DNA of 23,170 nt from a bacterium. GTDB lineage: Bacteria > JAHJDO01. Below the pieces are notes generated by a model. That model had not been told where the DNA came from and did no database searches. It saw only the letters and a list, made by a program, of their open reading frames with translations. How positions within the stretch are numbered: position 1 is the stretch's first letter; each line of letters begins with the position of its first letter. Of this stretch, positions 13,161 through 23,170 are shown in pieces. A program made the position numbers and the translations under genes. Location: positions 1 to 23,170 of the forward strand of contig JAUWOV010000019.1 in NCBI GenBank assembly GCA_030611945.1. The letters run 5' to 3'.

Positions 13161-14020
13161 TCAACATCCCCCTGAATCCCCCTTCGAAGGGGGAATAGTT
13201 TTGCCGCAGGCGAAACTAGGGGGATGTATTCCCTTCGTCGTTTATTGAATCTGACTATTTCCATGTATCCTGCTTTTTTTATTAATGAAATTGCCTTGTC
13301 AAAATCCCTACCTACATGCTCAGGTTTATGCGCGTCAGAGCCTAATGTAACAGGCACATTATGCTCATAACAAATCTTAAGGAACTTCTCCTGTGGATAT
13401 ATTTCTTCTACAGGCTTGTATAATCCGGAAGTATTAACCTCAATACATACGTCTGCATGTTTTAAGGTGCTTGCTGTTTGTTCATAAGTATTGGTTAAAT
13501 CTTTATCAGGTCTGTATCCGAATTTTTTTATAACATCTACGTGAGAAATACAGTCAAATAGTTTTGATTTGGCAGCTTCTTCAACCAGACTGAAATAGTC
13601 TTTGTACACTTTATACAAATCCTGATTTTCAAATCTTGATTTATGATCTGGATGATCAATCATCCAATCACCCAGAAAATGCACAGATCCATACAGATAG
13701 TCAAAATCATACTTATTGATGGTATTCATTATACTTTCCATTTTTCCAGGCAAATAATCAATCTCACACCCAAGTTTTATTGAAATACTCTCCTTAAACT
13801 CTCTCTGCAGTCTTTGTACCTGCTCCACATATATTGGAAATTCATCAATGGACATAGCAAGCCTTCTTGCAAATTCCTTATCCTCAAGGTGCAGAATCGG
13901 GAAATGCTCATTAAACCCTATCTCTCCCAGCCCTTTTTTAATAGCTTCCCCGATATATTCTTCCATCTCTCCCTCTGCATGACCGCACATTCTGGTATGG
14001 ATATGGTAATCAATAAGCAT
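13157..14020 (-). CDS. PHP-family phosphatase, histidinol-phosphatase-like, with repeat-derived C-terminus
   Basis: The protein belongs to the PHP metal-dependent phosphoesterases and is closest in layout to HisJ/HisK-type histidinol-phosphatase, which dephosphorylates histidinol phosphate. Metal-ligand motifs are DYHIHTRMCGHAEG (H6, H8, H14), GFNEHFPI, GSVHFLGDW, CISHVDVIKKFG and TLGSDAHKPEHVG. A GGGGGG site 6 nt before the ATG supports the start. Residues 265-287 (from YIPLVSPAAKLF onward) are encoded by a 64-bp repeat inserted at the 3' end; without it the protein would end near FNKRRRE at 264 residues. The stop overlaps bioB. No other histidine genes are nearby, so the substrate is uncertain; a role in biotin supply is not indicated. 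Confidence 0.85.
   Translation of the reverse strand: MLIDYHIHTRMCGHAEGEMEEYIGEAIKKGLGEIGFNEHFPILHLEDKEFARRLAMSIDEFPIYVEQVQRLQREFKESISIKLGCEIDYLPGKMESIMNTINKYDFDYLYGSVHFLGDWMIDHPDHKSRFENQDLYKVYKDYFSLVEEAAKSKLFDCISHVDVIKKFGYRPDKDLTNTYEQTASTLKHADVCIEVNTSGLYKPVEEIYPQEKFLKICYEHNVPVTLGSDAHKPEHVGRDFDKAISLIKKAGYMEIVRFNKRRREYIPLVSPAAKLFPLRRGIQGDVE
13164..13227 (-). repeat. 64-bp three-way-junction palindromic element, copy 1 (inside PHP gene end)
   Basis: Read on the minus strand it begins ACATCCCCCT and ends AGGGGGATGT (terminal inverted repeats). Inside are two further hairpins: TAGTTTCGCC/GGCAAAACTA with a TGC loop, and TTCCCCCTTCGAAGGGGGA. It is about 93% identical to the copy at 17905-17969, which lies in the opposite genomic orientation. 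ATTC occurs at 13159-13162 and again at 13228-13231, a 69-bp period that looks like a 4-bp target-site duplication. No protein is encoded on it alone; it is MITE- or REP-like. Confidence 0.88.
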
Positions 14021-17744: not shown

Positions 17745-17861
17745 ATGAAGATTGAAATATTAGGAACAGGCTGTCCAAAGTGTAAGAAATTGGTTGAACT
17801 GGCAGAAAAAGCTGTTAGTTGCTCTGCTTTTTCCCATTCTTGGCTGTGGGAGTTGTTATAG
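17745..17861 (+). pseudogene. Truncated thioredoxin-like (redox-active disulfide) gene
   Basis: A perfect RBS (AAGGAGG) precedes ATG 17745. The first 23-24 codons encode a small thioredoxin-like start with a CPKC redox motif (MKIEILGTGCPKCKKLVELA). The family is usually about 75-80 residues and continues after AEKAV. Here the frame changes to unrelated residues (SCSAFSHSWLWELL) and stops at residue 38. The sequence from the junction on reads as a lipoprotein leader in another frame, so the 3' part of the gene appears to have been lost by deletion. Confidence 0.75.
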
Positions 17862-17916
17862 TGGGAAAAAGCAAAGGGCGGAGGCAAGCCCCGCCCCTAC
17901 AATTACATCCACCTAG
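17806..17916 (+). pseudogene. Remnant of a lipoprotein gene start, fused to the thioredoxin fragment
   Basis: In the frame shifted by one base from the thioredoxin fragment, the DNA from 17806 reads KKLLVALLFPILGCGSCYSG: a basic start, a hydrophobic stretch and an ILGC lipobox-like site, as in a bacterial lipoprotein. Its ATG is missing because the thioredoxin sequence (GAAAAAGCTGTT) replaces it. About 22 codons later the frame enters a GTAGGGG-type repeat and ends at TAG 17914-17916. It was probably the next gene of the permease operon. What protein it was cannot be told. Confidence 0.5.
17876..17904 (-). repeat. GTAGGGG-family palindromic repeat, copy 1
   Basis: On the minus strand the element reads AATTGTAGGGGCGGGGC then TTGCCTCCGCCC, an imperfect hairpin. 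It matches the copy at 22208-22240 at 27 of 28 positions over the shared part. It directly abuts the 65-bp three-way-junction element at 17905, so two different repeat types are joined head to tail in the debris after the permease operon. Confidence 0.85.
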
Positions 17917-17969
17917 TTTCGCCTGTGGCAAAACTATTCCCCCTTTGAAGGGGGATTTTAGGGGGATGT
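17905..17969 (+). repeat. 65-bp three-way-junction palindromic element, copy 2
   Basis: The plus strand begins ACATCCACCT and ends AGGGGGATGT, with the same two internal hairpins as the copy at 13164-13227. It differs from that copy at a few positions and by one base in length; one change (ATCCCCC to ATCCACC) breaks a pair in the outer stem. No target duplication is clear here because it joins another repeat on the left. It lies 42 bp before the LysM/DUF4015 ATG. Confidence 0.88.
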
Positions 17970-19286: not shown

Positions 19287-20432
19287 GCCATTCTCCGGAT
19301 TGCAGATATAAATCTGCGGTTTAATTCTTGTCCTTTTTTCATATTCTCTGCTTATGAGTGAACGGAAATTATTGATGTTCTTTTTCTTAACAATGTTCAC
19401 AGTGCAACCTCCAAAACCGCCGCCAGTCATTCTAGCCCCAATTACACCATTAATGCTTCTTGCAATATTCACCATTGTATCAAGCTCAAGACAGCTTACT
19501 TCATAATTTTTCTTCAGGCTCTCATGTGATTCATTCATTAACCTGCCGAACTCAAGTATGTCATTTCTGCCCAGAGCCTTTATGGCGTCTAATACACGTT
19601 TATTTTCATAAAGAACATGTTTGCATCTTTTCTGCGTGATCTCATCAAGCGAGCCTTTATACTTTTCAAATTCTTTCATAGATACATCTCTAAGCGTTTC
19701 TATTTGCGGAAGAGACCTTTTAAGACTGGATACTGCTCTTTCACATGTTGCTCTTCGCTTATTATATTCTGAACCGGCAAGTTCTCTTTTCACATTTGTA
19801 TTACAAACAACTACGTTAAATTCCCCCAACTTTAAAGGGATGTTTTCATAAGAAAGGTTCCTGCAATCAAGAAACAGCGCATGGTCTTTTTCCCCCAGCA
19901 TAGAAACAAACTGATCCATTATTCCGCAGTTCACCCCAACAAATTTGTTCTCTGCTTTCTGGCACAGTTTAATCATTTCTATAGAGGATATTTCCAGATC
20001 AAATAGTATTTTGAAAAAATAGACTGTCGCAACTTCAAGCGCAGCAGAAGAGCTAAGTCCTGCTCCTTCAGGGATATCTCCTCCAAAAACGATATCCGCG
20101 CCATTAATATCAGCGCTTGTCTCTAATAAAGACTTTATTACACCTGCAACATAATTTACCCATATCTTTTCTTTATTGAACTGAATAGAATCAAGATCAA
20201 ATTGAACATTCTGGTCATAATCTATTGAGTATACTCGTATAATTCTATCATTGCGTTTTTCTCCAGCCATATAAATATTTCTATCTATAGCAATAGGCAA
20301 AACAAATCCCCCGTTGTAGTCAGTGTGCTCGCCAATCAGATTAATCCGTCCGGGAGCAGAGACAGTGAGCAGGTTTTTTGATTCTCCGTCAAAGATATCT
20401 TTGTATACAGCAGTAATACGTTTTAGATTCAC
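19272..20432 (-). CDS. galK: Galactokinase
   Basis: Galactokinase phosphorylates galactose at C1 in the Leloir pathway. The 386-residue length is typical. GHMP-kinase motifs are SAPGRINLIGEHTDYNGGF (25-43, with the galactokinase signature), GGDIPEGAGLSSSAALE (ATP loop), the CGIMDQF segment and the C-terminal GARMTGGGFGGCTVN. The start is a GTG (20432-20430) sharing GTGA with the stop of the RAYT transposase gene; an AAGG site lies about 10 nt upstream, inside the transposase gene. No galT or galE is in the window. It overlaps the LysM/DUF4015 gene end to end by 15 bp. Confidence 0.96.
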   Translation of the reverse strand: MNLKRITAVYKDIFDGESKNLLTVSAPGRINLIGEHTDYNGGFVLPIAIDRNIYMAGEKRNDRIIRVYSIDYDQNVQFDLDSIQFNKEKIWVNYVAGVIKSLLETSADINGADIVFGGDIPEGAGLSSSAALEVATVYFFKILFDLEISSIEMIKLCQKAENKFVGVNCGIMDQFVSMLGEKDHALFLDCRNLSYENIPLKLGEFNVVVCNTNVKRELAGSEYNKRRATCERAVSSLKRSLPQIETLRDVSMKEFEKYKGSLDEITQKRCKHVLYENKRVLDAIKALGRNDILEFGRLMNESHESLKKNYEVSCLELDTMVNIARSINGVIGARMTGGGFGGCTVNIVKKKNINNFRSLISREYEKRTRIKPQIYICNPENGSRRL

Positions 20433-21124
20433 TTATATCTGCCTTCACGCAAAGAATGCATCTGCTGCGCAACAGTTTGCTCATGATTATCATTTTTGTA
20501 CATACCATAAAAAGGATAGTCTCTTACCTTGTAATTTTTAATATTGTTCTCATCATCCGCCCATGTTGCAGGATTATTTATAATGTATTCTCTGATTTCC
20601 TGCAATGATTTATCGTTTCGGATAATATGGTCATAATAATTACGTTGCCAAATTTTGCTTGATTTATTCAAATTATTTTGTGTTATAAAATTCAAATATT
20701 CATTTGCACATTTTGATTTGAATGAACAAATGATTTGTCCTAAATTCGTAGGGGATGGGCTTGCCTCATCCCGATTATTGATTATAATTATACCATGAAT
20801 ATGATTTGGCATGATAATAAATGCATCGATATCAATATTGTGGTATTGATTCGGAATATCAATCCATTGATTTTGAATGATTTGCCCGATTTTGGTTAAT
20901 TGTGTTTGGATAGGATTATTGTCACGGGCGGAGGCGAGCCCATCCCCTACAATATTTGAATTATTAATTTTTGCAAATATATTTTGGCTGTCTTTCAAAC
21001 AAATCGTTACAAAATAATATCCATTCTCTGAATAATCATATTCTTTTAATCTATTCTTTTTACGATTCGGCAATTCTTTCATTATGTTTTTTACCATAAC
21101 GTTAAAGCTCAGCTTTGACAACAT
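20429..21124 (-). CDS. RAYT-type transposase (REP-associated tyrosine transposase, Y1/HUH)
   Basis: The protein belongs to the Y1_Tnp/TnpA-REP group of single-strand HUH nucleases, associated with mobility of REP palindromes. Motifs are RLKEYDYSENGYYFVTICL (25-43), the HUH site MPNHIHGII (H108, H110), WQRNYYDHIIR (159-169) and the probable catalytic-tyrosine helix LQEIREYIINNPATW (Y180). Residues 58-68 (IVGDGLASARD) and 117-126 (RDEASPSPT) are encoded by two inverted copies of the GTAGGGG palindrome. Starts at 21124, 21097 (4 nt after the upstream stop) and 21082 are all possible; the last gives a family-like N-terminus MKELPNRKKNRL. No RBS decides. The 5' end overlaps the 323-residue gene; the stop overlaps galK. 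The frame is intact and may be functional. Confidence 0.9.
   Translation of the reverse strand: MLSKLSFNVMVKNIMKELPNRKKNRLKEYDYSENGYYFVTICLKDSQNIFAKINNSNIVGDGLASARDNNPIQTQLTKIGQIIQNQWIDIPNQYHNIDIDAFIIMPNHIHGIIIINNRDEASPSPTNLGQIICSFKSKCANEYLNFITQNNLNKSSKIWQRNYYDHIIRNDKSLQEIREYIINNPATWADDENNIKNYKVRDYPFYGMYKNDNHEQTVAQQMHSLREGRYK
20748..20775 (+). repeat. GTAGGGG-family palindromic repeat, copy 2 (inside RAYT gene)
   Basis: The plus strand reads GTAGGGGATGGGCTTGCC then TCATCCCGAT. It is inverted relative to the other three copies and encodes RAYT residues about 117-126, directly after the HUH motif. The hairpin pairs GGGATG-type arms around GGGCTTGCC. Confidence 0.85.
20921..20953 (-). repeat. 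GTAGGGG-family palindromic repeat, copy 3 (inside RAYT gene)
   Basis: The minus strand reads ATTGTAGGGGATGGGCTCG then CCTCCGCCCGTGAC. It encodes RAYT residues about 58-68. It matches the copy at 22208-22240 at 30 of 33 positions, including the flanking GTCAC that lies outside the core palindrome. Confidence 0.87.
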
Positions 21125-22070
21125 CTACGAGTTCTGATGCGAATCTTTTTAGCGCTTTGGGCGTTAGCTTTTTGGATCTGTCCAACCAATCGACAATTTC
21201 ATCCTTGTCGCGCCGGTTTTTCCAGCATGACAGAAGATATTGCGCTTCCCCATAGGCATTCAGATTCCGTCGTTTGTCCAGCAGAACACGAAACAATCGT
21301 TCCGCAACCGAGAACTGTTTCGCTTTGGTGAAAGCGCACGCAGCATTATTGATCCCAATGAAAACCGCTGTCGGTGATCTGTCTGCGTTCAGTTGGGACC
21401 AACTGCCCAACAAAGACCTCTCTGGAGTTGCACCTTCTATATCGCCTACTCGACCAAGCCAATCATTGATCTGTCTCTGAAGTGCTTCTCCTGTGCTGGC
21501 AACTCTATCGGACTCGCCCCTAGCGCTGTAATACTTAACGAGAAGAATTTTGAATGTTACTGCTGCGAAATCACGATTGCTCCATGTCCTGTCCTCGCTA
21601 AGAAGCTTCTCTATTGCATTCAGGGCAGTTTTAGCACGACTGAATTCCTGGAAGTGAGTATATGCACTTGCATTAGTCCTATGCGATTCGAAACGAATAT
21701 TTCGGTTCTCGATGACAAGTGGACATTGAATATTTGCGAATTCGTAGCATTTCCACCAAAAATCCAAAAAGCCACCTTCAATCAGGGTCAATGCTTGAGT
21801 CTCATCTGAAACGACCCAATGAAGACGGAGGGGGAAAAGACTGGTTTTGCTCCATTCATGGAACTCTGATTGATACTTGTATTGGCTTTTTGCGTCCCTC
21901 ATCATTGCATATCGGTCGCAGATATTCCAAAGAACCCACCCAGTATCGTCCACAGACAGATCCGCCTTTACTCGAAGGGATACAAGCAATTCAATAATGG
22001 ATTCTGGCTTGGCATGTTCCGCAATCAACTTGCCAAACATTTTCTTAACGTCATCGATCATTTTCTGCAA
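21102..22070 (-). CDS. Unrecognised protein, helical repeat-like (about 323 aa)
   Basis: I do not recognise this family. The protein is soluble, rich in Ala, Leu, Arg and Trp, and looks mostly helical, with TPR-like stretches (NNAACAFTKAKQFSVAERLF and TALNAIEKLLSEDRTWSNRD). No catalytic motif, signal peptide or membrane segment is seen. The frame is open to a TTG at 22103 and has an ATG at 22088, but a perfect AAGGAGG (22082-22076) lies 5 nt before a TTG at 22070, which I take as the start. The DNA is visibly richer in G+C than its neighbours, suggesting acquisition. The stop overlaps the longest form of the RAYT gene by 23 bp. It could be a regulatory scaffold or a fragment of a larger acquired system. 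Confidence 0.7.
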   Translation of the reverse strand: MQKMIDDVKKMFGKLIAEHAKPESIIELLVSLRVKADLSVDDTGWVLWNICDRYAMMRDAKSQYKYQSEFHEWSKTSLFPLRLHWVVSDETQALTLIEGGFLDFWWKCYEFANIQCPLVIENRNIRFESHRTNASAYTHFQEFSRAKTALNAIEKLLSEDRTWSNRDFAAVTFKILLVKYYSARGESDRVASTGEALQRQINDWLGRVGDIEGATPERSLLGSWSQLNADRSPTAVFIGINNAACAFTKAKQFSVAERLFRVLLDKRRNLNAYGEAQYLLSCWKNRRDKDEIVDWLDRSKKLTPKALKRFASELVDVVKAEL

Positions 22071-22207
22071 CGCTACCTCCTTTTGCATTCCTATCTTACC
22101 CAAAACAATTAATCATTGAACGTTTGCTGCTGCTTTGGTGTTACCATAGTTCAAATTATTTAAAACCTCAATAAAAATAGACAAATATATCTTTGGACAA
22201 GATCATA

Positions 22208-22240
22208 GTCACGGGCGGAGGCAAGCCCCACCCCTACAAT
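22208..22240 (-). repeat. GTAGGGG-family palindromic repeat, copy 4 (between ruvA and the unknown gene)
   Basis: The minus strand reads ATTGTAGGGGTGGGGCTTG then CCTCCGCCCGTGAC. It lies 37 bp downstream of the ruvA stop, in the 206-bp gap before the preferred start of the unrecognised gene. It shares the GTCAC flank with copy 3. It is the only intergenic copy not joined to another repeat. The rest of the gap is AT-rich and shows no clear terminator. Confidence 0.87.
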
Positions 22241-22883: not shown

Positions 22884-23170
22884 TCACCAGCGAATATCTC
22901 CTATATAAATTTCTTCCCAATCTACTTCCAGAAAAGGGCTTAATATTAGCGTGCCTAAACTTGGCATTTTTATCATCTCGTAATCGTATACTATCATATT
23001 ATAACCTGATATCCAAAAAAATTTCAAAAATCTGGGAAGTCCTGTTGAGGGAACGGTCAACACATCATTACCCCCCTGGGCAGAAAAAGACTGATCTAAT
23101 CTAATCGCAGTATCAAGGTCAATAGGAGGAATCATAAGCAAGCGCTTGTCCAGATTCGGCACCTTATCTT
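22884..23170 (-). CDS. Hypothetical protein upstream of ruvA, 5' end open at window edge
   Basis: The frame ends in TGA at 22884 and stays open to the right edge of the window. A GTG at 23162 could be a start, but no properly spaced RBS precedes it, so the gene probably continues beyond the window. The visible 92-95 residues are moderately hydrophobic (FLKFFWISGYNMIVYDYEM, then SLGTLILSPFLEVDWEEIYIGDI) with no motif I recognise; it does not look like the end of RuvC. The 7-bp gap to ruvA suggests co-transcription. Confidence 0.55.
   Translation of the reverse strand, partial: DKVPNLDKRLLMIPPIDLDTAIRLDQSFSAQGGNDVLTVPSTGLPRFLKFFWISGYNMIVYDYEMIKMPSLGTLILSPFLEVDWEEIYIGDIRW

Follow-up and report, generated by a model that had tools for sequence, protein, structure and literature searches.

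A gene for a predicted 231-amino acid REP-associated tyrosine transposase (RAYT, or TnpAREP) carries two copies of one REP palindrome in its own reading frame, inverted relative to each other and placed on either side of the segment that encodes the HUH motif. The gene lies in a 23,170-nucleotide stretch of bacterial DNA, to which we refer as the window. The copies are REPs inserted in frame, insertions recur at one of the two sites across the family, the two sites of a gene usually hold REPs of the same family, and paralogues in one genome hold different families. We regard insertion of the cognate REP into tolerated loops of a subclass 2.4 (group 4) RAYT as the probable explanation. Movement of the REP on single-stranded DNA, for which the RAYT is presumably responsible, would have left copies near and inside the gene, and the survivors would be insertions that kept the frame open in two loops away from the catalytic core. 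These copies may afterwards persist as filler of the loops, undergo drift and exchange sequence among themselves. By analogy with TnpAREP biochemistry, the protein presumably mobilizes or cuts the REP of sites 1 and 2, and we infer that the insertion is neutral for the enzyme.

The RAYT gene and its REP copies

The features of the locus, in window coordinates, are as follows.

20429 to 21124 (-): predicted RAYT/TnpAREP coding sequence, 231 amino acids (ORF, Pfam, NCBIfam, AlphaFold2 model)
20925 to 20950 (-): site-1 copy of the REP, which precedes the HUH motif and lies between the first strand and helix A; GTAGGGGATGGGCTCGCCTCCGCCCG, encoding VGDGLASAR
20795 to 20806 (-): HUH motif NHIH, residues 107 to 110, with H108 and H110 invariant in a 48-sequence alignment
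20748 to 20773 (+): site-2 copy of the REP, immediately following the HUH strand; GTAGGGGATGGGCTTGCCTCATCCCG, encoding RDEASPSPT
20585 to 20587 (-): codon of the predicted catalytic tyrosine Y180, in the YIINNP motif, a nearly invariant column of the same alignment
22212 to 22237 (-): flanking REP copy of the same family, upstream of the RAYT gene, from repeat and pattern searches
17875 to 17900 (-): flanking REP copy of the same family, on the downstream side of the RAYT gene, from the same searches

The reading frame is intact and includes both the HUH and the tyrosine motifs. Its product scores 83.8 bits against the NCBIfam profile REP_Tyr_transpos (NF047646), for which the cut-off is 80, and matches Pfam Y1_Tnp with an E-value of 1e-5. 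An AlphaFold2 model of the protein has a pLDDT of 80.9 overall and above 90 in the core. In Foldseek, the model matches IS200/IS605 transposases as well as the TnpAREP-REP complex 4er8 (E 5e-7). Besides the two histidines, W159 and Q160 are invariant among the 48 homologues. The Y1 core, HUH motif, catalytic tyrosine and REP-transposase profile expected of the RAYT family are all present, and the assignment to this family made in a preliminary description of the window, which was based on the DNA alone, is upheld by profile and model. A 333-amino acid ORF (21102 to 22103, minus strand) overlaps the start of the RAYT gene by 23 nucleotides. It has no match in Pfam or NCBIfam profiles and was not seen beside the orthologous RAYT gene of a sister genome (G004).

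The preliminary description reported two REP copies of opposite orientation in this one frame, encoding RDEASPSPT and IVGDGLASARD, and two more nearby. We recovered all four, at the positions listed above. It also anticipated that the palindrome would be repeated in the genome, and a pattern search that allowed up to three mismatches found 23 matches in the 1.66-Mb draft genome and none with a reversed control. All genome-wide REP counts given here come from such searches. With a GTAG tag at the foot of the palindrome and many genomic copies, the element has the hallmarks of GTAG REPs. By our own arithmetic, the chance of finding two copies inside one given 0.7-kb ORF is ~4e-5, with the ~21 others placed randomly.

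At site 1, the GTAG tag is at the 5' end of the copy on the coding strand, and the copy at site 2 is inverted relative to it. The tags therefore face outward on the coding strand (GTAG>...HUH...<CTAC), with REPs on both sides of the HUH-coding segment. On its own, the site-2 copy folds into a hairpin. The site-1 copy folds no better than shuffled sequences because its two arms are mismatched. The copy at 22212 and the site-1 copy have ~20 nucleotides of downstream flank in common (a 59-nucleotide repeat, D2), so one was probably copied with its flank.

The orthologue in G004 is 89% identical over the aligned core and has both insertions. Site 2 is identical in the two genomes over 36 nucleotides, and site 1 differs at 10 of 66. 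Over the core, dN/dS between these orthologues is 0.13, so the core is under purifying selection; for more distant relatives, synonymous sites are saturated. The left arm of site 1 in the genome of the window (G000) contains two adjacent bases characteristic of site 2 (AT instead of CG), and the right arm still has the other type. This AT variant was found in none of the dispersed copies from the genome-wide pattern search, and the left arm looks like the result of a partial conversion from site 2.

Insertion sites and REP families among homologues

We compared the two sites across many phyla, in 104 homologues. In most of these, site 1 is a six-residue turn, such as VDGEMQ. A GTAG REP is present there in 12 genes, always with GTAG forward and never in the reading frame that reads TAG as a stop. 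Site 2 is short in a few homologues (DEGQT, QEGGKSS) and otherwise long and variable, and it contains GTAGGGG or CCCCTAC in 73 of the 104, again from many phyla. The density of this motif is 12.6 per kb at site 2 versus 0.5 per kb in flanking DNA. A second sample, which was collected for the most part with an HUH-less query, partly overlaps the first in its genomes and includes a few duplicate loci, has REP DNA at site 2 in 26 of 38 cases.

As the preliminary description proposed, both segments are, on the evidence of the homologue alignment, REP insertions into variable loops with the frame kept. Homologues without a REP do not have the same residues at these positions, site 1 being the short turn in these proteins, and both sites map to lower-confidence loops of the predicted structure. 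The idea of a recent or singular accident fared less well, since the site-2 insertion is common to the clade and, in many phyla, characteristic of RAYTs of subclass 2.4.

The loop peptides differ among homologues (for example, VGAGLKPAPT, VGANGRSPLQ, RGGVTPPK and REGASPSPT), as they stem from different REPs and different reading frames, and the recurrence is therefore at the level of DNA. In the closest clade, REGASPSPT/RDEASPSPT is nearly fixed at site 2, as might be expected if the loop peptides were conserved for a role of the protein and the repeat DNA were incidental. We consider such a role extremely improbable. It is contradicted at the level of the family, where unrelated peptides derived from different REPs, frames and orientations fill the same place.

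Which REP is found inside a RAYT gene appears to depend on the gene. The genome of the window contains another RAYT (G000:C105), with 41% identity to the first. It carries a different REP family, GTAGGGGCACRGCGTGCYGTGCCC, at both sites and in the same inverted arrangement, and this family is dispersed at ~15 places in the genome. In six lineages in which both sites are tagged, sites 1 and 2 resemble each other more within genes than between genes (exact permutation, 1/720). A near copy of the internal REP was detected within ~3 kb of 32 of 75 RAYT genes, versus 4.6% when the flanks of other loci were used. Judging from these comparisons, the internal REP is usually of the family that surrounds the gene, in line with the cognate pairs presented in the main text of Quentin et al. 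2018 (PMC6006769), and the REP inside the RAYT gene of the window is most likely that RAYT's own substrate.

REPs are nevertheless not confined to RAYT genes, and we rejected that simpler statement. In the genome of the window, the same or similar REPs occur in frame in YD-repeat, membrane and histidine kinase genes and in the N-terminal part of a RecG-like gene (loci L005, L014, L017, L022 and L023), which we named from a reading of their translations.

These in-frame copies in other genes would fit an explanation by tolerance alone, according to which REPs land everywhere and persist in surface loops, with nothing special about the RAYT gene. Published intragenic REPs in many genes fit it as well. 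However, the motif occurs somewhere in 87 of 104 RAYT genes versus 29 of 275 neighbouring ORFs of at least 150 amino acids, and its density is 2.81 versus 0.136 per kb, a ~20-fold difference. This excess is more than simple loop tolerance would give, and proximity, preference in cis, or selection must be added to it. Two further observations are left unexplained by tolerance alone: paralogues in one genome hold different families at both sites, and site 1 is GTAG-forward in all 12 genes. We therefore find tolerance alone rather doubtful, and of the preliminary description's suggestion of simple tolerance we retain only that other genes also accept REPs in frame. Its statement that the transposase was entered by its own substrate would describe one part of a wider invasion that also reached several unrelated genes, RAYT genes nevertheless showing a strong enrichment.

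A function in RNA, which the preliminary description also raised, is a further reading. The internal REPs might be elements of cis-acting control, in which the inverted pair folds the mRNA (or the single-stranded gene) around the HUH segment and limits RAYT expression, through the fold alone or when bound by the RAYT. A 301-nucleotide segment of the coding strand has a predicted folding energy of -79.9 kcal/mol, compared with -54.5 +/- 4.7 kcal/mol for shuffled sequences (z -5.4); in this fold, the two sites pair with each other. Moreover, the left arm of site 1 in G000 matches site 2 perfectly, although its own hairpin is spoiled. However, good folding is expected whenever two GC-rich REPs lie inverted in an AT-rich gene, and the z-score is therefore not evidence of selection or regulation. 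The pairing has two mismatches in the sister G004, and only a minority of homologues (the 12 genes with the tag) have site 1 to pair with. Control in cis of this kind is thus decidedly unlikely, and insertion of cognate REPs into tolerated loops accounts better for what is observed.

Polarity and RAYT genes lacking the HUH segment

Pairs of inverted REPs also occur within site 2, where the order is GTAG...CTAC in 43 of 45 doublets. Dispersed REP doublets in a related genome (G059) have the same polarity as sites 1 and 2 have across the HUH segment. This genome, which contains locus L057, has ~90 matches to the family-A core, many of them in inverted doublets of two REP types ~57 to 69 bp apart. 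REPINs consist of two inverted REPs with a short spacer and are repeated as a unit. The site 1/site 2 pair, by contrast, is separated by ~150 bp of coding DNA, and pattern searches did not find the pair itself dispersed in the genome.

This polarity raises the prospect that the HUH segment is excisable, with the two REPs as its borders, and could be removed or moved by the RAYT or by recombination at the palindromes. Outward-facing tags are the polarity of REPIN doublets, and REPIN excision has already been reported in the literature. Two loci resemble products of such an event. In the genome of the window, G000:C88 (L162, 4332 to 4694) is an intact 121-amino acid RAYT frame from which the stretch running from site 1 through HUH to site 2 is missing, with one palindrome in its place. 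This palindrome, GTAGGGGCGAACGGCTGTTCGCCCCTAC, is a single double-foot REP and the sole copy of its family in the genome. In G264:C19 (L202, 142384 to 142951), a RAYT frame lacks the HUH segment and one REP is left. Just upstream of it is an HUH-coding fragment with the same REP on both sides, and three of the six palindromes of this REP family in G264 are at this locus.

These are two cases among 385 genomes searched, both in draft assemblies, where short palindromes can mislead. Their products lack the HUH motif and may reflect plain decay, and the G264 fragment lacks the strand that follows HUH, so that the move was not clean. HUH-less forms were not found among relatives of G264, or among plasmid or viral records and contigs. 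We therefore think it unlikely that the inverted REPs make the HUH segment excisable by the general route, and assign a similarly low likelihood to the specific form in which the RAYT removes its own catalytic segment. If that were true, the gene would encode a self-limiting or self-rearranging transposase that gives rise to an HUH-less protein with one REP. The two loci do suggest that REPs can be break points for loss of the catalytic segment, which does not imply a programmed event. Other candidates were discarded. G049:C98, considered as a loose HUH segment, is a decayed gene without GTAGGG tags, and short frames in G279, G349, G110, G195, G230, G071, G229 and G208 belong to RAYTs that have been frameshifted, truncated or duplicated; none is a clean HUH deletion.

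Relation to known systems

Quentin et al. 2018 described in-frame REP insertions in tnpAREP genes as unique to subclass 2.4. According to the main text (PMC6006769), the insertions generally lie in a peripheral loop, between HuH and Y. This subclass corresponds to RAYT group 4 of Bertels et al. 2017. Its features are the motifs NH[IFV]H, WQ and YIxNNP, a long variable insertion after the HUH strand, and GTAG REPs in frame in the transposase gene and flanking it. Our RAYT has NHIH, WQ (159 to 160) and YIINNP, and its motifs and post-HUH REP insertion agree with subclass 2.4/group 4. Given this precedent and agreement, a RAYT with internal REPs would belong to a known kind. Unlike the insertions described there, the RAYT in the window has a second REP before HUH, inverted to the first. 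Relative to the main text of that study, the site-1 insertion with REPIN polarity, the same-family sites, the paralogue-specific pairs and the HUH-less derivatives are new.

Intragenic REPs were also reported by Di Nocera et al. 2013 (PMC3733652), and these share the 5' GTAG tag, the palindromic stem and the in-frame insertion in genes. As targets, the main text lists repair, tRNA and other genes but no RAYT genes, and intragenic REPs of R. conorii are of the CGTC class (PMC3733652). Rickettsia palindromic elements, cited in the same paper, are likewise palindromic repeats in frame in protein genes, but have no link to RAYTs. REPINs (Bertels and Rainey 2011, PMC3116915) have two inverted REPs, with the polarity seen in the G059 doublets. 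However, they are extragenic with a short non-coding spacer, whereas here the "spacer" is ~150 bp that encode HUH.

These observations extend a published oddity, REPs inside the genes of their presumed spreaders, to a second loop, with two paralogues of one genome each carrying its own REP family at the same two places. If a RAYT gene has its presumed substrate in frame, the enzyme and this substrate could remain together during horizontal transfer. The pairing of REP and RAYT may also be readable from sequence alone, including in uncultured lineages.

The start of a Thioredoxin_3 gene lies at 17745 to 17861 of the window (MKIEILGTGCPKCKKLVELAEKAV, Pfam E 1.5e-6). It is cut short after ~25 codons by a palindromic stretch, and this stretch continues into the REP at 17875. 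Directly adjoining the same REP is one copy (17904 to 17964) of a 61-nucleotide inverted repeat, perhaps another dispersed element, whose partner at 13168 to 13228 is 90% complementary. A second occurrence of the sequence GGAACGGTCAACACATCATTACCCCCCTGGGCAGAA (23050 to 23085 in the window) directly adjoins a family-A REP on a different contig (L015).
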